From the NCBI RefSeq assembly GCF_030409505.1, contig NZ_JAUFPZ010000002.1:3974501-4038500 (forward strand): a DNA stretch of 64,000 bases, in the 5' to 3' direction. Shown piece after piece: positions 6,850 to 21,142 of the stretch. The DNA is from Zunongwangia endophytica (GTDB lineage Bacteria > Bacteroidota > Bacteroidia > Flavobacteriales > Flavobacteriaceae). The notes below the pieces were generated by a model. That model had not been told where the DNA came from. It ran no database searches and saw only the letters and a program-made list of their open reading frames with translations. Made by a program: the position numbers and the translations under genes. Every line of letters begins with the position of its first letter. Position 1 is the stretch's first letter.

Positions 6850-8009
6850 TTAAAAATAATATCCTATGTTTATATTAAAGCGGGCTTCCCATTTTGCATC
6901 AGAATTTCCTACAGAGAAATCATCTACAAAGTTTCCGCCCAGCCAGGAATGATTGTACCCTGCGGCATAATCGATGTATGTATAGATTTGACCAGCCGTT
7001 ACCAAAACTCCGGTCACGTTCATAAAAGAATCTTCAAAAGTATCCTCAGATTTGTCCATAAAACCAAAATCATTATAGAATTCCAAATTTGATATTGGTC
7101 CTATTTCAACAGGAATTTTTCTACTTACTGCTAGCGTATACATATTGAAATCTGCTGCGACCTCGTATGGAGCACCGTAGGCAGCAAATTTTAAAACGTT
7201 GCTATTCACGGTATCTGGTGTAGCGGGGTTATGTTCGATAATCATCCCTTGTGCCTTTACATTCCACTTTTCACCCAAGTATTCATAATGAAGCGCGAAA
7301 CCATGATGGTCTCCTGTTTCTTCAGTATCAATATTATAAATACCACCATATTGTACCGATGTCCCTATCTGGTGATTTTTATTTTTGCCAAACTTATAAA
7401 TAAATTTTCCGTTGAACTGGTTAATTTCCTTATTTCTGCCAGCAATATCGTAGGAGTATCTAGAAGGAGATACTTCAGTATTACTTCCAAATCTTAGTTC
7501 TTCGGCATTTTTGAAGAAAGCAAACTGATACTGGAAATCTTCTGAATCGTGCATATACTTAATACCCATATCATGATCGTCTTCTAATCCCACGTAGTAT
7601 GAAATATTAAAAAACCAATTATGAGAATTATATTGCTGAAGTCCAAATGGTACCTGTGTTAATCCAACCTGGATTTGGTCCTGATCATTAAAATTATAAC
7701 CAACCCAACCTTGTTTTAGAAATCCACCTCCAAATGATTCAGAATACAATCGATATTCTACATTTAGAAAGATGTCTTTGTAAGATCCTTTTGCGTTGAT
7801 ACGAAATATATCGTAACCAAAATCGCCTCCCCGTTTCTTTTGTCCCTCTTTCCAACTAGAAAGATTGTAATTAAAACGCAATGCGCCACCAATATCCAAC
7901 TTCGGTTTTTCGGCTTCGTTGTCATCTTGTGCCATCACCGGGAAAAGCAAAAAAGAAATGCAGCGCTCAGGAATAATTTGTAAGTTTTAGAAAGTAAATT
8001 TTTTTTCAT
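6850..8009 (-). pseudogene. Outer-membrane porin, frameshifted in the signal peptide (possibly phase-variable)
   Basis: The barrel frame (6850-7950, 366 residues) is a close paralogue of the next porin: both begin with KLDIGGALRFNYNLSSWK, share RGGDFG, SHNWF and YVGLEDD, and end INxGYYF. As the sequence stands, that frame opens only at a TTG and has no signal peptide. The proper start is the ATG at 8009 (MKKNLLSKTYKLF...), which runs into a TGA just after the hydrophobic core. Adding one base to the A6 run at 7949-7954 (T6 on the coding strand) joins the two parts into a signal peptide ending PVMA-Q. It is therefore a frameshift mutation, a sequencing error or an on/off homopolymer switch. 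It lies 17 bases upstream of the BCCT gene. Confidence 0.8.
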
Positions 8010-8111
8010 TCACTATGGTTTTAAATGGATTTTTGCGAAACAATAAAAAACTGCCTCAATAAACTAAAAATTAATAAACTCTTAAATCATCTTTATGAGG
8101 AATTTATAGAA

Positions 8112-8125
8112 TTATTTGCAAATAA
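8112..8125. repeat. Perfect 14-base palindrome between the two porins
   Basis: TTATTTGCAAATAA lies in the 134-base gap between the porin genes. It may be a regulatory site or a weak hairpin; no function can be assigned. Confidence 0.3.
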
Positions 8126-8143
8126 ACATTATAAACCGAGTTT

Positions 8144-9307
8144 TTAGAAGTAATAACCCACATTAATGTTAAAACGAGCTTCCCATTTAACACCCGGATC
8201 ACCGGTAGAAAATTCATTATCAAAATCACCACCCAGCCAAGAATGATTATATCCGGCGGCATAATCGATATAGGTACTAATAGGTCCAGAATTTATAAGT
8301 ACTCCAAAGACATTCATATAGGATTCTGCAAAGCCATCAATACTTTTGTGCATATATCCAAAGTCATTATAAATCTCAATTTTTTCTACAAAATCCCTAT
8401 CGACATTAATTAGGCGTGAAACACCAAAGTTATAAATTTCAAAATCTGTAGCAACTTCGTAAGGCGTACCGTAAGCGCCCATTTGAATAATATCTCTGGA
8501 ATTGCCCGGGGCGTTTTCAGGATTAAATTCGGCTTTAGTTGCCTGTGCTTTTATAAACCAGTCTTCGGTTCTAAATTCATAATGAACTGCAAGGGCATAG
8601 CGATCTCCGGTTTCCTGAGTCTCTATATTGTAAATGCCGCCATATTGCGCAGAAAGTCCAATCTTATGCATTCCATCTAAATTCGGTTTGTAAACTAATT
8701 TTCCGTTGATTTGGTTTACTTCCTTATTTTTTCCGACGATATCATAAGAATATCGACTAGACGATGCAGCAGAGTTATTTCCAAATGTCAACTCTTCACC
8801 ATTCTTGAAAAAAGCGGCATAATACTCAAACATATCACCTTTATAGGAATATCGAACTCCCATATCATAGTCGTCTTCGAGACCAACATAGTAAGGAAGA
8901 TTTAAAAACCAGTTGTGAGAATTATAACGCTCGATCCCAAAAGGAACCTGTAATAAACCAATTTGAATTTCTTGCTCTTCATTTAAGTGATAACCTAGCC
9001 AGCCTTGTTTTAAGAAGTTTCCACCAAATGCTTCAGAGTAAAATCGATATTCTGCATTTATATAGAGATCTTTATATTCTCCTTGTACGGCAAGTCTAAA
9101 TAGATCAAATCCAAAATCGCCTCCTCGTTCTTTCATCTCGGGTTTCCAGGAAGATAGGTTGTAATTGAAACGGAGGGCACCGCCAATGTCTAATTTTGGC
9201 TTAGGTTTTTCATCGCTTTTTTCTTGGGCATTGCTTTCCTGAAGTGGTAAAAAGCATAAAATAAGTAAAGCAATGCAATAGTTAGTTAGAGGTAGTTTTT
9301 GTTTCAT
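8144..9307 (-). CDS. Outer-membrane porin (intact paralogue)
   Basis: A 387-residue protein with a signal peptide (about 1-27, ending SNA-Q), a short charged linker (EKSDEKPKPK) and a beta-barrel of alternating polar/hydrophobic strands closing with the terminal Phe of INVGYYF, as outer-membrane proteins do. It resembles phosphate-selective/OprO-P-like or generic porins of Bacteroidota, but no specificity is readable. It is strongly similar along its whole length to the frameshifted copy downstream, pointing to a tandem duplication. First gene of the apparent operon porin-porin-BCCT-Usp, so passage of compatible solutes across the outer membrane is a reasonable inference. Confidence 0.85.
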   Translation of the reverse strand: MKQKLPLTNYCIALLILCFLPLQESNAQEKSDEKPKPKLDIGGALRFNYNLSSWKPEMKERGGDFGFDLFRLAVQGEYKDLYINAEYRFYSEAFGGNFLKQGWLGYHLNEEQEIQIGLLQVPFGIERYNSHNWFLNLPYYVGLEDDYDMGVRYSYKGDMFEYYAAFFKNGEELTFGNNSAASSSRYSYDIVGKNKEVNQINGKLVYKPNLDGMHKIGLSAQYGGIYNIETQETGDRYALAVHYEFRTEDWFIKAQATKAEFNPENAPGNSRDIIQMGAYGTPYEVATDFEIYNFGVSRLINVDRDFVEKIEIYNDFGYMHKSIDGFAESYMNVFGVLINSGPISTYIDYAAGYNHSWLGGDFDNEFSTGDPGVKWEARFNINVGYYF

Positions 9308-12825: not shown

Positions 12826-14628
12826 ATGGCAGATATTAAAAATATTGCAATTATTGCACACGTTGACCACGGTAAGACTACCCTGGTTGATAAGATCATG
12901 TATCATTGTCGTTTATTTAGAGAAAACGAAAATACTGGTGACCTTATTTTGGATAATAACGATCTTGAGAGAGAACGTGGTATTACCATTACTTCAAAAA
13001 ACGTATCTGTAGTATATAAAGATACAAAGATTAACATTATTGATACTCCTGGTCACGCCGATTTTGGTGGAGAGGTAGAGCGTGTGTTAAATATGGCAGA
13101 TGGTGTTTTACTTTTAGTAGATGCTTTTGAAGGGCCTATGCCACAAACTCGTTTCGTATTACAAAAAGCAATCGACCTTGGTTTAAAACCATGTGTTGTT
13201 GTAAATAAAGTAGATAAAGAAAACTGTACTCCAGACGAAGTTCACGAAAAAGTATTCGATCTTATGTTCGAACTTGGAGCAGAGGAGTGGCAGTTAGACT
13301 TCCCAACAGTATACGGTTCTGCAAAGAACAACTGGATGAGCGAAGACTGGAAAAACCAAACTGAAAATATCGAGCCATTATTAGATATGGTTATCGAACA
13401 TATTCCTTCTCCAAAAGTAGATACTACTGGTACACCACAAATGCTTATTACATCTTTAGACTTTTCTTCTTTTACAGGAAGAATTGCTATTGGACGTTTG
13501 CAACGTGGAATCCTTAAAGAAGGAATGCAGGTTTCTTTGGTAAAACGTGATGGAAGCATCAAGAAAACAAAAATTAAAGAACTTCATACTTTCGAAGGTT
13601 TAGGCCGTAGAAAAATTGATGAAGTTGTGGCAGGAGATATTTGTGCGGTTGTAGGATTAGAAGGTTTTGATATTGGTGATACTATTGCTGATATAGAAAA
13701 TCCTGAAGGTCTTAAAACCATCGCAATCGATGAGCCTACAATGAGTATGTTGTTCACAATTAACGATTCTCCTTTCTTTGGAAAAGATGGAAAGTTTGTG
13801 ACTTCAAGACACATTAAAGACAGGCTTACTAAAGAATTAGAAAAGAACCTTGCGCTTAGAGTACACGATACCGATAGTGCCGATAAGTTTATGGTTTACG
13901 GTCGTGGTGTACTTCACTTATCTGTACTAATCGAAACGATGCGTCGTGAAGGTTACGAATTACAGATTGGGCAGCCACAGGTAATCATCAAAGAAATTGA
14001 TGGTGTTAAATGTGAGCCGGTTGAAGAATTAACGATCGACCTTCCAGAAAATGTTTCTGGTAGAGCGGTAGAGTTTGTAACTTTACGTAAAGGTGAAATG
14101 TTAAGTATGGAAGCCAAAGGTGACCGTATGGTATGTGAATTTTTAATTCCATCTCGTGGGATCATTGGTTTACGTAACCAATTGTTAACCGCTACGGCAG
14201 GTGAAGCAATAATGGCACACCGTTTTAAAGAATATCAGCCATTAAAAGGTGGTATCCCAGAGCGTTTAAATGGATCGTTAGTTTCTATGGAAAAAGGATC
14301 TGCAATTCCTTATTCTATTGATAAACTTCAGGATCGTGGTAAATTCTTTGTAGATCCAGGTGAAGATATTTATGAAGGTCAGGTAATTGGAGAAAATTCA
14401 CGTCAGGATGATATGGCGGTGAATATCACTAAAACTAAGAAACTTTCTAACGTACGTTCTTCTGGTGCAGATGATAAAGCGAAGATCGTACCTGCGATTA
14501 AGTTTTCTTTGGAAGAAGCTTTAGAATATATTCAGAAAGATGAGTATGTTGAAGTTACACCAAATCACTTAAGACTTAGAAAGATTTATCTAACTGAGAA
14601 TGACAGAAAAAGAAATAAAATTATCTAA
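12826..14628 (+). CDS. typA: Translational GTPase TypA/BipA
   Basis: A 600-residue ribosome-binding GTPase, full length for the family. The G domain carries [10 protein letters not shown] (G1, about residues 10-19), RERGITI (G2), [14 protein letters not shown] (G3) and [13 protein letters not shown] (G4). Then come domain 2 ([13 protein letters not shown]...), an EF-G-like domain III and V, and the BipA-specific C-terminal domain with [20 protein letters not shown] and the late [24 protein letters not shown]. BipA acts in 50S ribosome assembly and stress adaptation, especially in the cold. Its own promoter box is at 12796-12803 and a strong terminator at 14652-14688 separates it from the copper-like locus. 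Confidence 0.97.
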
Positions 14629-14651
14629 TCGATAGTTTTATACTGAAATAG

Positions 14652-14688
14652 AAAAAACCTCACAGTTCTTAACTCGTGAGGTTTTTTT
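14652..14688 (+). terminator. Rho-independent terminator after typA
   Basis: AAAAAACCTCAC (14652-14663) and GTGAGGTTTTTT (14676-14687) with a 12-base loop and a T run. It isolates the following 6.2-kb gene group on its upstream side. Confidence 0.9.
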
Positions 14689-14862
14689 GTTTTTAGCGCT
14701 CATATCTTTCACATAAAAAGTTCGTCGCATGACTATATCTGCAAATTCTCTTCTCTCTTCTCTCAATTCTCACTTCTAATCTCTAGAAAAAAAGACCCAA
14801 ATTTTAACTAATATGAAGTCTACAAAATCAGTGTTTATGTTGAATAGAAATACCGATTTACC

Positions 14863-14870
14863 TATTTTTG
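14863..14870 (+). promoter_or_regulatory. -7 promoter box (TATTTTTG) of the MbnP/MbnH locus
   Basis: TATTTTTGCAGC ends only 4 bases before the GTG start at 14875. With transcription starting a few bases after the box, the mRNA would be leaderless or nearly so. Confidence 0.6.
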
Positions 14871-14874
14871 CAGC

Positions 14875-15240
14875 GTGAAATATTTGTTTCCCATATTCGC
14901 TTTTTTGATCTTGGTAAAGCCTGTTTTTCCGGTGGTGGACTACGTGCTTAATTACGATTATATCGCTAAAGAGTTATGCGAGAACAAAGAGCGTCCAGAA
15001 CTGGCCTGTAACGGGAAGTGTTATTTGATGCAGGCGCTTGCAGAAGCTTCAGAAGAGGAGTCTGAACAGAAAAAAGAATCTTCAATTAAAAAAGTTGACA
15101 TTCCTCTTTTCTATACAGAGAAAGTCGTACTAATAAATAACAATCAGGAAACTGAAGCTGTGGCGCATAACTTTAGATTTCAGCCTCAGTTTTACCATTT
15201 CCAGAATTCACAGGAGTTTTTCCATCCTCCAATTGTTTAA
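14875..15240 (+). CDS. CNGKC small membrane-anchored protein, copy 1
   Basis: A 121-residue protein with a GTG start, one N-terminal hydrophobic segment (about residues 3-24) and then the motif ELC-x9-CNGKCYLMQ with Cys35, Cys45 and Cys49. The C-terminus is polar and ends HPPIV. It aligns end to end with the protein at 15765 (same NYDYI, CNGKCYLMQ and PPI ending). I know of no assigned function. Three conserved cysteines with Met52 beside a membrane anchor would suit soft-metal (copper) or thiol chemistry (inference), and the neighbours (MbnP, MbnH) support that. First gene of the cluster. Confidence 0.75.
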   Translation: MKYLFPIFAFLILVKPVFPVVDYVLNYDYIAKELCENKERPELACNGKCYLMQALAEASEEESEQKKESSIKKVDIPLFYTEKVVLINNNQETEAVAHNFRFQPQFYHFQNSQEFFHPPIV

Positions 15241-15305
15241 GTTTAAATGCTGAATTTCTAAAATTCGGTGCCATTTTTATTCAATATTAAACTTAAATAT
15301 TCTCA

Positions 15306-15743
15306 ATGAAACTTATTTACAAAGCAGCATTACTACTTAGTTTTGCAACACTTGCCTATTCTTGTGCAGAAGATACTTCAGCAAAGAAAAAAGAATACGA
15401 TAATCTATTCCATGAGGTTTTGGATATTCACGACGAAGTAATGCCTAAGATGGCTGATATTCCTGAATTGTCGAAACAACTTCAAACCATTGCAGACACT
15501 AGTGCTTCCGCAGAAAAATATATGCAAGCTGAAAAAAAGCTTCAAGAAGCAGACAAAGTGATGATGAAATGGATGCATAGCTTTAGTGATGAATTTGTGA
15601 AGGATAAAGCTGAAGTTCAGAAAATGAACAATGAGCAACTTCAAGAACGAATTGATGCGTTAGAAGAAGAGCTAGACGACGTTAAAGCGATGCAGGAAAA
15701 AGTAGATTCCAGTATCGAAAACGCAGAGAATCTTATTCAATAA
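15306..15743 (+). CDS. His/Met-rich helical lipoprotein
   Basis: A 145-residue lipoprotein: signal ending LAYSC (Cys20), then a nearly all-helical, highly charged body that resembles what databases often label a viral A-type inclusion-like coiled coil. Two clusters stand out: HEVLDIHDEVMPKM (His36, His42, Met46, Met49) and VMMKWMHSF (Met86, Met87, Met90, His91). The spacing would line up on facing helices. Metal binding by these side chains is an inference; coiled-coil character in the C-terminal half (ALEEELDDVKAMQEKVDSSI) is seen directly. It lies between the two CNGKC genes, gaps of 65 and 21 bases. Confidence 0.7.
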   Translation: MKLIYKAALLLSFATLAYSCAEDTSAKKKEYDNLFHEVLDIHDEVMPKMADIPELSKQLQTIADTSASAEKYMQAEKKLQEADKVMMKWMHSFSDEFVKDKAEVQKMNNEQLQERIDALEEELDDVKAMQEKVDSSIENAENLIQ

Positions 15744-15764
15744 TCCTATTTCTATCGATTCTAC

Positions 15765-16136
15765 ATGCGATATTTAGGCCTTTTTGTGGTCTTATTTATC
15801 CTGTTGAAACCAGTATTGCCGGTTGTGGACTATATTTTCAATTATGATTATATAGCCACCGAATTATGTATTAACCGTGATCGCCCCGATTTGGCTTGTA
15901 ACGGTAAATGCTATTTAATGCAATCCCTGGCAGAACAGGCAAATAAAGAGCACGACAAAAAGCAAGCAAACTTAGAAAGCAGGTATAAGCTTCCTGTGCT
16001 TTATTTTGAGGATCATCAGTCAATTTTCGATAATCTGACTGATGTTTTAATAAATAAAGCGAAAGTGACGATGCCGTATTTTGCTTCTTATAGTTTCTTG
16101 TTTTCCAAAGACGAGACTAAGCCTCCAATTGCTTAA
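15765..16136 (+). CDS. CNGKC small membrane-anchored protein, copy 2
   Basis: A 123-residue paralogue of the protein at 14875. The N-terminal hydrophobic segment (residues 3-24), the NYDYIATELC stretch and CNGKCYLMQ are conserved, with Cys35, Cys45 and Cys49 at identical positions; the C-terminus ends KPPIA. Between the motif and the tail the two copies have diverged, so only the anchor, the cysteine motif and the extreme C-terminus appear constrained. ATG start 21 bases after the lipoprotein gene, so the three genes are likely one transcript. Function unknown. Confidence 0.75.
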   Translation: MRYLGLFVVLFILLKPVLPVVDYIFNYDYIATELCINRDRPDLACNGKCYLMQSLAEQANKEHDKKQANLESRYKLPVLYFEDHQSIFDNLTDVLINKAKVTMPYFASYSFLFSKDETKPPIA

Positions 16137-16219
16137 AATTCATTTATAAAATTGGCAATATTGATTCTTAAATTGAGAGTCGAGAGCCACTGGTATGTCC
16201 AAATTTTAATAAACAATCG

Positions 16220-16246
16220 CTGCTATACCTATAAAATCGATAGCAG
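16220..16246 (+). promoter_or_regulatory. Inverted repeat upstream of the first MbnP-like gene
   Basis: CTGCTAT (16220-16226) and ATAGCAG (16240-16246) flank a 13-base spacer, 15 bases before the ATG at 16262. It could be an operator dyad for the MbnP/MbnH genes; there is no T run, so a terminator is unlikely. Confidence 0.4.
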
Positions 16247-16261
16247 TATAAATTGAAAAAA

Positions 16262-17065
16262 ATGAATTTTAATTATATAAAAATAAGTCTTCTTTTTTTA
16301 GTTGTTTCTCTTGCTGCATGCTCATCAGACGATGATGCTGTGGATACCGCAACGGGTGAAAATGAAGTTAGAATCGGGTTTGATAATGGCGTTAATGGAG
16401 ATGATCTTTTATTAGGTGCGTCTACTTACATAAACTCTAATGATGAAGTTTTAACTATAAATCGTTTTAATTACATCGTAAGTAATTTTGTTTTAATCGA
16501 TGCTGAAGGAAATGAATATACTTATCCTAAAGATGAAAGTTATTTTGTGGTAAGCGAAGAAAATGATCTTACTGAAGTAAGTTTAAAAAACATTCCTGCG
16601 GCAGAATATGTGGCTATTAAATTTGGTGTAGGAGTAGATCAGGCTAAATACCAGCAAGGTGCTGAAGGACAAGGTGATTTTTTAGAGATTGCAGAGAACA
16701 ACGAGATGATGTGGTCGTGGCAAGCGGGTTATAAATTTTTAAATTTTGAAGGAACCTTTACCTCAGAAACTGTTGCTGAAGCTACAAACTTTAAAATCCA
16801 TATGGGAAGCCACGGTAGTAGTTTAGATAACTATCGTGAAGTAACTTTAGATTTACCATCGAGAGCCTTGGTTAGCGATAAGTTGAGTCCGGTGATTCAC
16901 ATGGCTGTAGATGCGAATAGAATTTTAGACGGTCAAAACAAGATTAAACTTTCAGAGAAAGCGGTAGTGATGATCGATGAAGTTAAAAGTCCGCAAATTT
17001 CAGAAAATGCAACTGGGATGTTTCGGGTAGATCATGTTCATAATGGTGAAAATGTTCAACATTAA
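16262..17065 (+). CDS. MbnP-like copper-binding lipoprotein, copy 1
   Basis: A 267-residue lipoprotein: signal ending LAAC (Cys20) followed by SSDDD, a surface-lipoprotein export signal of Bacteroidota. The body matches the MbnP family: an immunoglobulin-like beta fold beginning VRIGFDNGVNG, the FNYIVSNFVLID segment, FGVGVDQAKYQ and MMWSWQAGYKF (Trp151, Trp153). It also has KIHMGSHG (His180, Met181, His184), which the second copy lacks. In methanotroph MbnP a Trp is oxidised by the partner MbnH to kynurenine to help make a copper site; one of these Trp residues is the natural candidate here (inference). A TTG at 16253 would add three residues and cannot be excluded. Confidence 0.85.
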   Translation: MNFNYIKISLLFLVVSLAACSSDDDAVDTATGENEVRIGFDNGVNGDDLLLGASTYINSNDEVLTINRFNYIVSNFVLIDAEGNEYTYPKDESYFVVSEENDLTEVSLKNIPAAEYVAIKFGVGVDQAKYQQGAEGQGDFLEIAENNEMMWSWQAGYKFLNFEGTFTSETVAEATNFKIHMGSHGSSLDNYREVTLDLPSRALVSDKLSPVIHMAVDANRILDGQNKIKLSEKAVVMIDEVKSPQISENATGMFRVDHVHNGENVQH

Positions 17066-17091
17066 TTACAGGTATTTCGCTTGTTAATTAC

Positions 17092-17166
17092 ATGAGGAGA
17101 TTGAATTCATTCAACAAAATCATATCGGTTTTTCAGAATGGCTTAAACTCCTTTAAGAATATATAG
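17092..17166 (+). CDS. Possible 24-residue small ORF before the first MbnH-like gene
   Basis: ATG at 17092 to TAG at 17164-17166 encodes a basic amphipathic peptide (MRRLNSFNKIISVF...). It ends 2 bases before the MbnH ATG at 17169, so translation could be coupled. Coding status is uncertain. Confidence 0.25.
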   Translation: MRRLNSFNKIISVFQNGLNSFKNI

Positions 17167-17168
17167 CT

Positions 17169-18224
17169 ATGATCAAAAATCTAAAAATACTAGTACTTTT
17201 TTTATTTCTTTTAGGGAATTGCTCGTGTAGTAGTGACGATAGCGAAGATTACATTGCGATCAACAAGTCGTTGGAGGTAAATATACCTTCAAATTTTCCT
17301 GAAATTCAATATGATCTAAGTGCTAACCCACCAACAGAGAAAGGTTTCGAATTGGGTAAAAAGTTGTTTTATGATGGGAAACTGTCCACAAATGGGTTTA
17401 TTTCTTGTGGTTTTTGCCACGAACAGCGATTTGCTTTTACGCACCACGGCCATCAATTTAGCCACGGTATTGATGATCTGGAGGGAACAAGAAATGCTCC
17501 TGCAGTTCAGAATATGGCATTTCAGAAAGAATTTGCCTGGGACGGGGCAACGTCACATTTAGATTTATTTCCCATCATACCGATTACTAACGAGGTAGAA
17601 ATGGGAGAAACAGTCTCTAATGTGATCGCTAAACTAAAGTCTGATGGCGAATATCCTCGATTATTTGCTGAGGCTTTTGAAGACGGCGAGGTAAATAACG
17701 AATATTTCTTTAAAGCCTTATCACAATTTATGGTGATGATGATCTCTTCGAACTCTAAATATGATAAATATGTTAGAGAAGAAGAAGGAGGTACATTTTC
17801 TGAAACCGAGAAATTAGGTCTTGATATTTTTACACAGAAATGTGCCACCTGTCACAAGACCGATCTTTTTACTGATGATGCTTTTAGAAACAATGGATTA
17901 CCACCATATCCTGGAATCAATGATATTGGAAGAGCTGAAGTTACCGGAAGTGCTGCCGATAATTATAAATTTAAAGTACCTAGCTTACGGAATGTAGCGA
18001 TTACCGAGCCATATATGCATGACGGCAGGTTTGGGAGTCTGGAATCTGTACTTAATTTTTACGATCACGGTGTGCAGGATTCGGAAACTTTAGATCCTAT
18101 TTTAAAACAAAACAGTCGATTAGGAATCGATTTGAATAGTGAGGAAAAGGCAGCATTAATTGCTTTTCTAAACACACTAACCGACGACGAATATTTAAAT
18201 GATAAACGATTTGCAGAATATTAA
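17169..18224 (+). CDS. MbnH-like di-heme peroxidase (MauG/CCP superfamily), copy 1
   Basis: A 351-residue di-heme protein. Two c-type heme motifs are seen: CGFCH (80-84) and CATCH (225-229), with the conserved VPSLRNVAITEPYMHDGRF segment of bacterial cytochrome c peroxidase/MauG enzymes near residues 270-287 and the early ELGKKLFYDGKLS..G..SC run. MbnH, a member of this superfamily, oxidises a Trp of its partner MbnP. The N-terminus is hydrophobic and reaches CSCSSDDSED, an acidic lipoprotein-like stretch, although the lipobox is not ideal. It starts 103 bases after MbnP copy 1 and is followed by MbnP copy 2 after 32 bases. Confidence 0.9.
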   Translation: MIKNLKILVLFLFLLGNCSCSSDDSEDYIAINKSLEVNIPSNFPEIQYDLSANPPTEKGFELGKKLFYDGKLSTNGFISCGFCHEQRFAFTHHGHQFSHGIDDLEGTRNAPAVQNMAFQKEFAWDGATSHLDLFPIIPITNEVEMGETVSNVIAKLKSDGEYPRLFAEAFEDGEVNNEYFFKALSQFMVMMISSNSKYDKYVREEEGGTFSETEKLGLDIFTQKCATCHKTDLFTDDAFRNNGLPPYPGINDIGRAEVTGSAADNYKFKVPSLRNVAITEPYMHDGRFGSLESVLNFYDHGVQDSETLDPILKQNSRLGIDLNSEEKAALIAFLNTLTDDEYLNDKRFAEY

Positions 18225-18256
18225 GGCAAATTATAAAAACACAAAAACACAAAAAC

Positions 18257-19054
18257 ATGAAATCAATTATAAAATCAGCAATCTTATTTTCATTATTAAT
18301 AGCATTCACGGCATGCAGCAGTGATGATGATGTTAATAATTTAGACGCTTCCGTAAGTGCTGGGAGTTTGGATATTACTTTTAATAATATGGTTGGAGAT
18401 GAAGATTTTCAGCTTGATAAAGAATATTCAGTAAACGGAGAAGATGTAAGTTTATCTCAGGTTCGTTACTGGATAAGTAATATTAAATTAATTAATGACG
18501 ATGGTGAAAGTATAGAAATTCCAGAGTCCTACTTTCTAATCGAGGAAACGGGTGCAATTAGCATTCAGGATGGGGCGTACGAGTATCCAGCTAAAAATAG
18601 AGATGTAATCAATATTGCAAGTGTACCTGGTGGTACTTATACCGATATAGAATTTTCTGTTGGTGTAGATCAGGTGTATAATGATAACTTAAGTTTACAA
18701 GCAGGAGAACTATCTCAATTAAATGGAATGACTAATATTTCTTGGATGTGGCATACTAGTTACATTTTCGCTTCAATTAAAGGGAATAAAGCGGGTAATG
18801 ACAATAATCTAGTTTTTGAAACAGGATTAAACGATAACTATAAAACAGTTACAATAGATTTAGAAGATGCGCTTCAAATCGATGGAACTAGCACAGGTAA
18901 GATCCAGTTAAAAGCAGATATAGCTGCTATTTTAGATGGAATTGATATAGAGGAAACACCAGTAATTGGTGCTGCTACTCCAGAAGCTATGGAATTGATG
19001 GCAACAAATTTCGAGACTAAAGTTTTTACCTGGATGTCATTAAGTAATGAGTAG
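18257..19054 (+). CDS. MbnP-like copper-binding lipoprotein, copy 2
   Basis: A 265-residue lipoprotein with signal FTAC (Cys20) followed by SSDDD, then the MbnP pattern: LDITFNNMVGDEDFQLDKEY, VRYWISNIKLI, FSVGVDQVYNDN and ISWMWHTSYIF (Trp163, Trp165, His166). The His/Met stretch KIHMGSHG of copy 1 is replaced by VFETGLNDNY, so the two copies may differ in metal site or cargo. Its last 8 bases overlap the start of MbnH copy 2, giving a translationally coupled pair. The binding and kynurenine chemistry are inferred from the family, not shown by the sequence. Confidence 0.85.
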   Translation: MKSIIKSAILFSLLIAFTACSSDDDVNNLDASVSAGSLDITFNNMVGDEDFQLDKEYSVNGEDVSLSQVRYWISNIKLINDDGESIEIPESYFLIEETGAISIQDGAYEYPAKNRDVINIASVPGGTYTDIEFSVGVDQVYNDNLSLQAGELSQLNGMTNISWMWHTSYIFASIKGNKAGNDNNLVFETGLNDNYKTVTIDLEDALQIDGTSTGKIQLKADIAAILDGIDIEETPVIGAATPEAMELMATNFETKVFTWMSLSNE

Positions 19055-20105
19055 AAAATCTCTATTTATTATAGTATTAAGTGGTTGTATCCTTTTTAGC
19101 TGTAATAAAGATGAAATTTATATACCGCAGGAACCTGATGATGTACTTCAGGTTCCTGCTAATTTTCCTCCTTTACCACAACAACCGGATTATCCAATTA
19201 CTGAAGCTGGAGTAGCTCTTGGTAGAAAACTATTTTTTGATACTCGACTCTCTGGTAATAATCAGGTTTCTTGTGCAAGTTGCCACGTTCCATCTTTAGC
19301 TTTTACAGAAGGGAGCACGCTTAGTACTAAAGGAATCTCTGGAAATCCATTGCTGCGGCACGTACCAGCATTAATAAATCTTGCATGGGCCGACAATGGT
19401 TTATTCTGGGATGGAGGTTCGGCAAATTTGGAATCTCAGGCATTTGCTCCATTAGGACATAAAGACGAAATGTTTCAGAATTTGGATGAATTGGAAAAGG
19501 ATTTGAAAAATGATCAATATTATCCTTTATTTTTTCAAGATGCATTCGATAGTCAGATTCGAATTAATTTGGTGATGAAAGCATTGGCGCAATATCAACG
19601 CACACTTGTTTCAGCAAATAGTAAATATGATTATGTGGTACGGGGAGAAAAGGATGCGGTTTTTAATGAAGTAGAAGAAAGAGGATTTCAACTTTTCAAT
19701 CAAAAATGTGCAGCGTGCCACAAACCCGAACTCTTTACTGATAATGACTATCATAATAATGGTTTGGATGAAGATTTTACCGATGTTGGCGAGGATGAAA
19801 TTTATTTAGGGAGATTTCGTGTTACGCGTAATCCCGATGATATTGGAAAATATAAAACTCCAACACTAAGAAATATTGCGGTCACAGGACCTTACATGCA
19901 TGATGGCCGTTTAGATAACTTAAAAGCAGTTCTAGACTTTTATGCTACTGAAATAAAAGATTCTAAAACTTTAGATCCAATTTTGAAAGAAAATGGACGA
20001 TTGGGAGTCGATTTAAATGAAGAAGATAAAAAAGCATTGATCGCATTCTTAAATACCCTAACAGATGAAACTTTTTTGAATAATGAAGAATTTACAGAGT
20101 ACTAA
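19047..20105 (+). CDS. MbnH-like di-heme peroxidase, copy 2
   Basis: A 352-residue lipoprotein: signal ending LFSC (Cys19), then NKDEIY, again an acidic stretch after the Cys. Heme motifs CASCH and CAACH are present, with ALGRKLFFDTRLSGNNQVSCASCH before the first and YKTPTLRNIAVTGPYMHDGRL after the second, as in MauG/bacterial CCP enzymes. It is similar throughout to copy 1, including the shared ending AFLNTLTD. Overlaps MbnP copy 2 at its start (8 bases) and the outer-membrane protein gene at its end (23 bases), so the last three genes form one tightly coupled unit. Confidence 0.9.
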   Translation: MSRKSLFIIVLSGCILFSCNKDEIYIPQEPDDVLQVPANFPPLPQQPDYPITEAGVALGRKLFFDTRLSGNNQVSCASCHVPSLAFTEGSTLSTKGISGNPLLRHVPALINLAWADNGLFWDGGSANLESQAFAPLGHKDEMFQNLDELEKDLKNDQYYPLFFQDAFDSQIRINLVMKALAQYQRTLVSANSKYDYVVRGEKDAVFNEVEERGFQLFNQKCAACHKPELFTDNDYHNNGLDEDFTDVGEDEIYLGRFRVTRNPDDIGKYKTPTLRNIAVTGPYMHDGRLDNLKAVLDFYATEIKDSKTLDPILKENGRLGVDLNEEDKKALIAFLNTLTDETFLNNEEFTEY

Positions 20106-21090
20106 ATATACACTATCGATAATAATAATGTTTTGCTTCTCTTTAGTGAAAGCAGAAACATCAAAAGATTCTACTGCCGTATTCTCGAATTTCAATTTTG
20201 AATACGATGATTGTGATGTATGCGGCTGCGGTAGTAGTGGCGGTAGTATGGGTTACGGTACTATCGGAAATGGTGATTTTGCAGGCCTACGTTATATCCA
20301 TCAACAATATAAATCTAAAGATGGAATTTATAATAATTCCCCATGGATCGATGAAAATTTTAATACGCTGCAAGCCTGGACACGAATTCCGGTAACTACA
20401 AAAATTAAAGTCAATGTAATTGTGCCTTACCATTTTCACAATCGTGAATTTGACGACGGAAGCACTCAGGATATTAATGGCTTGGGAGATATTAGTATTC
20501 TTGGTTTTTATAAGCTGATCTCACCAAAATTAGATGGATTTTTACCTGAACAACAAACAAAATTTAAACATAACCTTGAAGTTGGAGCAGGAGTGAAGTT
20601 ACCTACAGGAGAATACAAAAGATCCAATAATGAGGGAAGTGTAAATCCAAGTTTTCAGGTAGGAACAGGAAGCTGGGATATTCTTTTGGCAAGTAACTAT
20701 TCTATATCCTATAATAATTGGGGATTGGGAGCACTTGCGAATTATACTATTAAGACTGAAAACGAACAAAATTACCATTTTGGAGATCAGTTTACTTATG
20801 GCTTAAATCTTTACCGTAGCTTCATGACCATGAATGCAAAAACGTTTACGCCAATATCTATAACACCGATTTTGGGTCTTTCAGGAGAAGTTTTTGGGGA
20901 AAATGAAAGTTATGGTATGCCTGTTAAAGATACCAAAGGCGATATTTTATTTAGCCGAATAGGAGTCGAATCGAATTATGGTAAAATTTCAGGAGGAGTA
21001 AATCTTATGCTTCCTGTGAGTCAAAACTTAAATGCAGGAAATGTTGAAGCTAAAATGCGATTAGGAATCCATCTTAATTACGTATTGTAA
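20083..21090 (+). CDS. Outer-membrane beta-barrel protein with N-terminal CxxCxC cluster
   Basis: A 335-residue secreted protein: signal peptide ending VKA (about residue 24), then a short mature N-terminus with YDDCDVCGCGSSGGSMGYG (Cys44, Cys47, Cys49) and after it a beta-barrel-like body (WTRIPVTTKIKVNVIVPYHF, LEVGAGVKLPTGEY, GTGSWDILLASNYSISYNNWGLGALANY). Such bodies are seen in 'transporter' barrels placed beside MbnP/MbnH-type genes. The Cys cluster is a plausible periplasmic or surface metal site (inference). Last gene of the cluster; a perfect hairpin terminator follows at 21113. Confidence 0.8.
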   Translation: MKNLQSTKYTLSIIIMFCFSLVKAETSKDSTAVFSNFNFEYDDCDVCGCGSSGGSMGYGTIGNGDFAGLRYIHQQYKSKDGIYNNSPWIDENFNTLQAWTRIPVTTKIKVNVIVPYHFHNREFDDGSTQDINGLGDISILGFYKLISPKLDGFLPEQQTKFKHNLEVGAGVKLPTGEYKRSNNEGSVNPSFQVGTGSWDILLASNYSISYNNWGLGALANYTIKTENEQNYHFGDQFTYGLNLYRSFMTMNAKTFTPISITPILGLSGEVFGENESYGMPVKDTKGDILFSRIGVESNYGKISGGVNLMLPVSQNLNAGNVEAKMRLGIHLNYVL

Positions 21091-21112
21091 TTTCATAATA
21101 TTGAATAAAAAT

Positions 21113-21142
21113 AGCTGCTAATATTAATATTAGCAGCTTTTT
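21113..21142. terminator. Perfect-palindrome terminator closing the MbnP/MbnH locus
   Basis: AGCTGCTAATATTAATATTA plus GCAGCT is a 26-base perfect palindrome followed by a T run; on the other strand a T5 stretch also follows, so it may serve the convergent ftsE gene too. Confidence 0.85.

Follow-up and report, generated by a model that had tools for sequence, protein, structure and literature searches.

A candidate copper-acquisition operon of Zunongwangia endophytica with two MbnP-MbnH pairs and putative CNGKC leader peptides

In the known MbnP/MbnH pair, the di-heme enzyme MbnH oxidises a Trp of its partner MbnP to kynurenine. Why would a flavobacterium keep two pairs of this kind at one locus, and how might their expression be controlled? 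We raise this question for Zunongwangia endophytica (genome size 4.38 Mb), in a 64,000-nucleotide stretch of contig NZ_JAUFPZ010000002.1, hereafter the window. All eight open reading frames (ORFs) of the locus lie on the plus strand at 14875-21090, flanked by two terminator hairpins, in the order CNGKC1, small lipoprotein, CNGKC2, MbnP1, MbnH1, MbnP2, MbnH2 and outer-membrane barrel, CNGKC being a Cys motif of the two small proteins. Our analysis makes it fairly probable that the eight genes form a Flavobacteriaceae operon which acquires (or traps) copper and is controlled by leader peptides. The flavobacterial MbnP-MbnH-barrel operon combines known kinds of components in a new way, and no description of it was found in the literature searched.

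The hairpin between the upstream gene and the operon (14651-14688) folds with -17.7 kcal/mol (z -5.57, none of 200 shuffles as good), and the closing hairpin (about 21113-21138; z -4.35) has an 11-bp stem with a T-run on both strands; each was more stable than every one of its 200 shuffles. A consensus terminator scan with a loop limit of 8 listed only the second. MbnP2 and MbnH2 overlap by 8 bases, MbnH2 and the barrel by 23. The initial annotation, which had described eight same-strand genes between two strong terminators with these overlaps, was correct in this respect, and also in that no TonB receptor was found among the eight proteins. Pfam assigned MbnP to two of them and CCP_MauG to two others, and the remaining four gave nothing above the curated cut-offs in Pfam or NCBIfam. 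None of the eight matched methanobactin-biosynthesis families (MbnB, MbnC etc.) at E 0.1, the precursor peptide not being searched for.

Is the arrangement conserved? The initial annotation had regarded the CNGKC proteins, the lipoprotein and the barrel as new companions of MbnP/MbnH, and had suggested searching for the CNGKC proteins and the barrel beside MbnP/MbnH in other genomes. The barrel of Zunongwangia sp. HGR-M22 is 95% identical to that of the window. A barrel profile retrieved 217 relatives from named genomes, and the loci of the best 80 were inspected. CNGKC and MbnP were located upstream of the barrel on the same strand in 78 of these 80, and MbnH was present as well in 76, so that these companions are indeed conserved; the small lipoprotein (15306-15743, plus strand; IHDEVMPKM ... 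MMKWM) proved to be optional (15/80). The two exceptions were L255, with the order C-L-C-P-H and a barrel masked by ORF selection, and L252, a barrel fragment in a different setting. The tandem P-H-P-H occurred in 4 of the 80 loci, which together with the window and G152 gives six tandem loci. Among 149 genomes of the family, MbnP was found in 71, CNGKC in 91 and the barrel in 30; 22 of the barrel matches were stronger than 1e-50, and 21 of these adjoined MbnP, the remaining one lying at a contig end. CNGKC was also found in 101 of 296 genomes of a phylum sample.

Three settings of MbnP-MbnH were read from 100 fetched loci and the window; the part of the 80 MbnP places of the family survey that was fetched gave, together with the window, 60 loci and 61 MbnP rows. 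The first is that of the window, CNGKC-(lipoprotein-CNGKC)-MbnP-MbnH-barrel. The second, in 6 loci, is CNGKC-YtkA-like lipoprotein-TonB receptor-MbnP-MbnH, with one further locus where a small lipoprotein replaces CNGKC. In the third (28 loci, L144-L181), which lacks CNGKC, MbnP-MbnH is the immediate neighbour of suf genes, and the pairs sit behind choice-of-anchor-B and beta-propeller-like proteins; both kinds of neighbour were recognised by eye. CNGKC also leads loci free of MbnP, which contain a TonB receptor with a YtkA-like protein, a TonB receptor with PepSY_TM, or a Met-rich barrel. A third CNGKC of the Z. endophytica genome (G000:C2:974584-976127) leads a locus that has a Met/His-rich PF13557 barrel (6.5% Met) and no MbnP, a candidate second copper locus. 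In one congener (G100; L123 8506-9411), MbnH is either disrupted by a frameshift immediately after its first heme motif or misassembled there, and MbnP and the barrel are open.

What, then, are the CNGKC proteins? CNGKC1 (14875-15240, plus strand, 121 aa) begins with GTG, has a hydrophobic N-terminus as judged by eye, carries ELC-x9-CNGKC and ends in FHPPIV. CNGKC2 (15765-16136, plus strand, 123 aa) ends in KPPIA and is an internal leader-like ORF ahead of MbnP1. Among 177 distinct CNGKC proteins (identical copies removed), CxGxC was present in 176 and a Pro-Pro no more than 8 residues from the stop in 175, with H, R or K before it in 156 of the 175. For comparison, only 15 of 452 other small ORFs from the same loci had Pro-Pro in their last ten residues. 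From the last Cys to the first Pro there were 64-74 positions (mean 68.6, sd 2.0), a stretch whose length is held and whose sequence is poorly conserved. A median of 101 bases separated CNGKC from the next gene on its strand, compared with 48 for MbnP-MbnH, 12.5 for lipoprotein-CNGKC and 2 for MbnH-barrel. In size, Cys motif and a Pro-Pro within the last 15 residues, CNGKC proteins agree with the small copper regulators CruR and CutF; CNGKC1 is also a first gene with a promoter of its own, and the internal CNGKC2 is not.

A Bacteroidota -7 element (TATTTTTG, 14863-14870, plus strand) lies just upstream of the CNGKC1 GTG at 14875. With the 4-nt spacing from this element to the transcript start that was used for F. 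johnsoniae (PMC6847099), the transcript is predicted to open with the GTG itself (14875) and would be leaderless; in F. psychrophilum, leaderless transcripts were 5.5% of the mRNAs examined (PMC9723704). A TTG 20 nt ahead of the -7 element (14840-14842, plus strand) is a possible but weak -33 element, since only 22 of 123 heads have a TTG at a distance of 16-24 nt. These 123, out of 155 head CNGKC genes, are those in which TAnnTTTG is followed by a start codon in frame. The leaderless distance of 4-5 nt, at which transcript and coding sequence would therefore begin together, was seen in 59 of the 155. TAnnTTTG was absent before all 21 internal CNGKC copies, CNGKC2 of the window included. In a matched control of 495 distinct MbnP, MbnH, barrel, TonB, lipoprotein and YtkA-like genes, 19 had TAnnTTTG and none had it at 4-5 nt. 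By class, the short spacing was observed in 45 of 95 CNGKC genes heading MbnP operons and in 11 of 27 heading operons with CxxxM receptors.

Because of the terminal Pro-Pro, the held spacing, the position at the operon head and the tight promoter, we propose that the CNGKC proteins are CutF/CruR-like copper-sensing upstream ORFs. This would fit them better than a role as new structural components, which the initial annotation had assigned to them. However, several observations weigh against it. The models which gathered the CNGKC set include the PP columns, so PP-bearing members may be favoured. Kinship with CruR/CutF is not demonstrated, since DUF2946 (PF11162) was listed for none of 21 CNGKC proteins at a Pfam E of 10 (few matches above 0.1 pass the filters of HMMER) and was detected in none of the 149 family genomes; membership of DUF2946 was accordingly rejected. 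The end motif is mainly HPP, RPP or KPP rather than RAPP, and CNGKC2 lies inside the operon, which CruR does not. The gap behind CNGKC exceeds the others, yet the MbnP-MbnH gaps are not tiny either. Heads of Met-rich barrels had TAnnTTTG in 11 of 13 cases but never at 4-5 nt (0/13), and in the TonB group without the OprC motif only 2 of 11 heads had it. Finally, MbnP-MbnH can do without CNGKC, as in the 28 fetched suf-linked loci. Alternatively, the CNGKC proteins could be small exported copper carriers that serve the downstream receptor, barrel or MbnP, with a structural Pro-Pro. The Cys motif, the hydrophobic N-terminus and the linkage to probable copper genes fit such carriers equally well. 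Nevertheless, a poorly conserved Cys-to-PP stretch of fixed length, a terminal PP in 175 of 177 proteins and a leaderless distance in 59 of 155 heads speak against them, and we regard carriers as unlikely, if worth keeping in mind. A different type of small ORF (L127 1898-2191; CELC, RPPPSI end) adjoins TonB receptors and looks like a further leader-ORF family.

The gap of 125 bases between CNGKC2 and MbnP1 contains a weak hairpin (16161-16183, plus strand) with 7 pairs across six Zunongwangia sequences, 2 of these pairs having changed on both sides, and a conserved RNA switch is not claimed from it. Also conserved in Zunongwangia is a block in this gap (16137-16261) around CCAtagCTATGTC-AAATTTT.

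Where would the products of the operon act? After removal of identical proteins, 143 MbnP and 146 MbnH proteins were scanned for a lipobox. At least two acidic residues followed the lipobox-like Cys in 136 of 140 MbnP and 107 of 141 MbnH proteins, and in only 13 of 24 small lipoproteins. Acidic residues mark the export signals described in Bacteroidetes (SDDDD, SDDFE, C-x-K-(D/E)2; PMC5080379), and the MbnP/MbnH system is probably located at the surface. The barrel (20083-21090, plus strand) was modelled with about 12 strands (pLDDT 75.9) and a disordered N-terminal CDVCGCG tail. Its sequence gave no convincing match in the PDB; with Foldseek, the model matched FapF/COG4313 channels (5o67 and 4rl8; E 4.6e-11 and 6.9e-11, TM 0.5-0.7). 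Barrels with CxxCxC (104, chiefly CDxCGC) were found in MbnP loci in 103 cases, and the other 13 barrels were rich in Met (6.9% on average), with no MbnP in the loci of 12.

Which metal is handled? Copper is our best guess, suggested because sister loci carry OprC-like receptors. OprC was the best PDB match of both CNGKC-led receptors that were compared, and for one of the two the NCBIfam TonB-copper model (TIGR01778) was the best model, below its cut-off. The copper ligands of OprC are Cys143, Met147, His323 and Met325 (PMC8610252), and an OprC-type site (CxxxMD with HxM 181-183 residues on) was present in 26 of 37 distinct CNGKC-led receptors. The initial annotation had spoken of a methanobactin-independent copper system; its first half agrees with the lack of biosynthesis genes among the eight, and its second is probable by way of these sister receptors. 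On the other side, CxxxM-HxM is absent in 11 of the 37, and the other receptor tested had the hemoglobin/transferrin model first and TonB-copper second, both below cut-off.

Two rival readings concern the metal and its fate. The operon might trap or detoxify surplus copper at the surface rather than acquire copper: surface MbnP together with the Cys-rich barrel could be a sink, and CutF is described as increasing copper oxidase production under copper (PMC9973294). However, sister operons have OprC-like receptors, and neither Pfam nor NCBIfam placed any of the eight gene products in an efflux pump or copper oxidase family; we find this reading unlikely as well, slightly more so than the carriers. 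A metal other than copper, or a metal-free MbnP, is improbable. One CNGKC group does lead siderophore-type TonB receptors and PepSY_TM proteins, and the OprC motif is lacking in the 11 receptors just mentioned, but PepSY_TM and TonB genes likewise lie behind the copper regulator CruR (PMC9426467), and most receptors retain the OprC site.

Why are there two pairs? The initial annotation had recognised two MbnP-MbnH pairs, which is confirmed, and had called them duplicated, which is not. MbnP1 (16262-17065, plus strand) is a His-type lipoprotein whose ORF opens at TTG 16253 with a likely start at ATG 16262; its key residues are W154, W156 and H183, numbered from TTG 16253. MbnH1 (17169-18224, plus strand) is a di-heme MauG-like lipoprotein with CGFCH, CATCH and PYMHDG...Y. 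MbnP2 (18257-19054, plus strand) belongs to a Glu-type subfamily (TNISWMWHTSYIF...ETG), and its di-heme partner MbnH2 (19047-20105, plus strand) has CASCH and CAACH. PF20243 scored 159 bits on MbnP1 and 145.9 on MbnP2 (cut-off 27), and PF03150 gave E 2.2e-51 and 8.5e-52 on MbnH1 and MbnH2. The predicted model of MbnP1 shares the fold of Methylosinus MbnP. The best PDB relative of MbnH1 was 6e1c (E 3.3e-42), which we take to be MbnH; in alignment, both enzymes have two CxxCH each and a Tyr matching that of 6e1c, presumably the axial position. Identity is only 28.9% between MbnP1 and MbnP2 and 43.4% between MbnH1 and MbnH2, and in a tree of 150 MbnH sequences (identical proteins kept) the six second-pair enzymes formed one clade with a support of 0.974. 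A recent tandem duplication is rejected on these values, and on sequence grounds the two pairs are two old subfamilies. At equivalog level, however, the assignment is weaker: MbnP1 and MbnP2 missed the TIGR04052 cut-off of 140 (51.6 and 48.7 bits), and MbnH1 and MbnH2, at TIGR04039 E values of 1.8e-64 and 2.4e-68, fell short of the 362.85-bit cut-off of that model with 217.9 and 230.7 bits; this cut-off was passed in none of the 149 family genomes.

One residue of the putative metal site differs between the subfamilies. In a joint MbnP alignment (rows under 200 residues excluded, five proteins present twice), His183 was conserved in 59 of 60 rows of one locus set and in 81 of 88 of the other; the rows without it were the six second-pair MbnPs, which have Glu, and two more. 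Among the best 120 of 295 MbnP2 relatives (MbnP2 included), the named ones of which are from Chitinophaga, Pedobacter, Sphingobacterium and others, this position was Glu in 118 and Gln in 2, both Trp were kept, and the signature was near TNISWMW[HM]TSYIF. When stand-alone genes of this type were sought in a class sample of 198 genomes, the Z. endophytica genome alone scored clearly (401 bits, next 130). That MbnP2-MbnH2 is a functionless, decaying copy is very improbable, since the loss of a His so widely kept is met by a Glu/Gln conserved with both Trp across several genera, and by the single clade of second-pair enzymes. In barrel loci, both Trp of WxW were kept in all 102 distinct MbnPs adjoining MbnH (96 His, 6 Glu). 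In the two barrel loci without MbnH (L259, L284), the first Trp and the His were lost and the second Trp was kept. This joint loss suggests that the first Trp is the target of MbnH, acting with the His. Such loci number only two, however, and both are from Flavobacterium; moreover, in the suf setting, where MbnH is present, Val replaced the second WxW Trp in 18 of 28 loci and Phe the first in 2. No paper showing MbnH-made kynurenine in MbnP was found in the literature searched.

How could these parts work together? Starting from what is shown here, namely gene order, motifs, promoter elements, conservation and predicted folds, we propose that transcription starts at or next to the CNGKC1 start codon, as the promoter indicates. 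The nascent CNGKC chain would sense copper by the cysteines of C...CNGKC, and the ribosome would slow on reaching the [HRK]-Pro-Pro end. If the switch works as in CruR, scarce copper would keep the stall and the operon would be read, and copper would free the stall, turning the downstream genes off. CNGKC2 could repeat the same switch ahead of MbnP1. The operon would yield two pairs of lipoproteins with an acidic signal like that for surface export, and within each pair MbnH may oxidise the WxW Trp of its MbnP to form, with the conserved His, a metal site; in the second old subfamily, MbnP2/MbnH2, Glu would replace the His. The metal may then pass inward through the barrel, which resembles FapF/COG4313 channels and has a Cys-rich tail. 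We infer the metal identity, the Trp oxidation, the stalling and its direction, the surface location and the transport from the above.

Outside the operon, the gene upstream of the first terminator (12826-14628) is typA/bipA-like, and at 6850-9307 on the minus strand of the window two similar porin-like genes lie in tandem near BCCT-/UspA-like genes, all recognised by eye.

How does this locus compare with known systems? In comparison with MbnP/MbnH of Methylosinus trichosporium (MbnP 7l6g; di-heme 6e1c), the window has no methanobactin-biosynthesis genes among its eight, stays below the NCBIfam equivalog cut-offs, and has a tandem of two subfamilies with barrel and CNGKC partners. If our reading is true, MbnP/MbnH gains a regulated setting outside methanotrophs, and copper capture by many Flavobacteria without methanobactin genes at the locus would be explained. 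CorA/CorB and MopE/SACCP of methanotrophs are a functional model for MbnP-MbnH, likened by function and not by sequence; CorA/MopE were not among the listed fold relatives of MbnP1, an absence that proves nothing. CorA/MopE is described as a copper-repressed surface copper protein with a Trp-derived kynurenine and a co-transcribed MauG-like cytochrome, with copper between two His and the kynurenine, which in CorA is called a second-sphere ligand (PMC3912023). Here, the loci that have naturally lost MbnH together with one Trp and one His point to the residues of interest.

The CNGKC proteins resemble CruR of Bordetella and CutF of Rhodobacter in being small and of exported type, with CxxC/CxxxC (CxxxC in CutF, PMC9973294) and a C-terminal Pro-Pro at held spacing, and in preceding OprC-type TonB, PepSY_TM and also MbnPH-like genes (PMC9426467, PMC9973294). 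They differ in having no DUF2946 match, an HPP/RPP/KPP end, a predicted leaderless start in 59 of 155 heads, an internal second copy in the window, and 64-74 positions to the first Pro, compared with the 45 residues given for CruR from CXXC to RAPP. The CutF-like catalogue holds 5,334 proteins, with Bacteroidota at 40% after normalising and 19% otherwise (PMC9973294), and its Bacteroidota list may well already contain the CNGKC family. A survey of RAPP/RGPP leaders names Bacteroidota among groups without leaders of copper genes (PMC12992588). If true, our reading extends nascent-peptide copper control to Bacteroidota operons. Tentatively, and with somewhat less than even confidence, we suggest that Bacteroidota have a large, often leaderless CNGKC-HPP leader family with no detectable kinship to DUF2946, serving as a nascent-chain copper switch and coupled here to a surface copper system free of TonB receptors, in which two different MauG-like enzymes would each make a Trp-derived metal site, one using His and the other Glu. 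The site of the copper importer OprC is shared by 26 of 37 receptors of sister operons; OprC itself is absent here, and in its place stands a non-TonB barrel, which shares its predicted fold with FapF/COG4313 channels and adds to it a disordered CDxCGC tail and the linkage to MbnP/MbnH.

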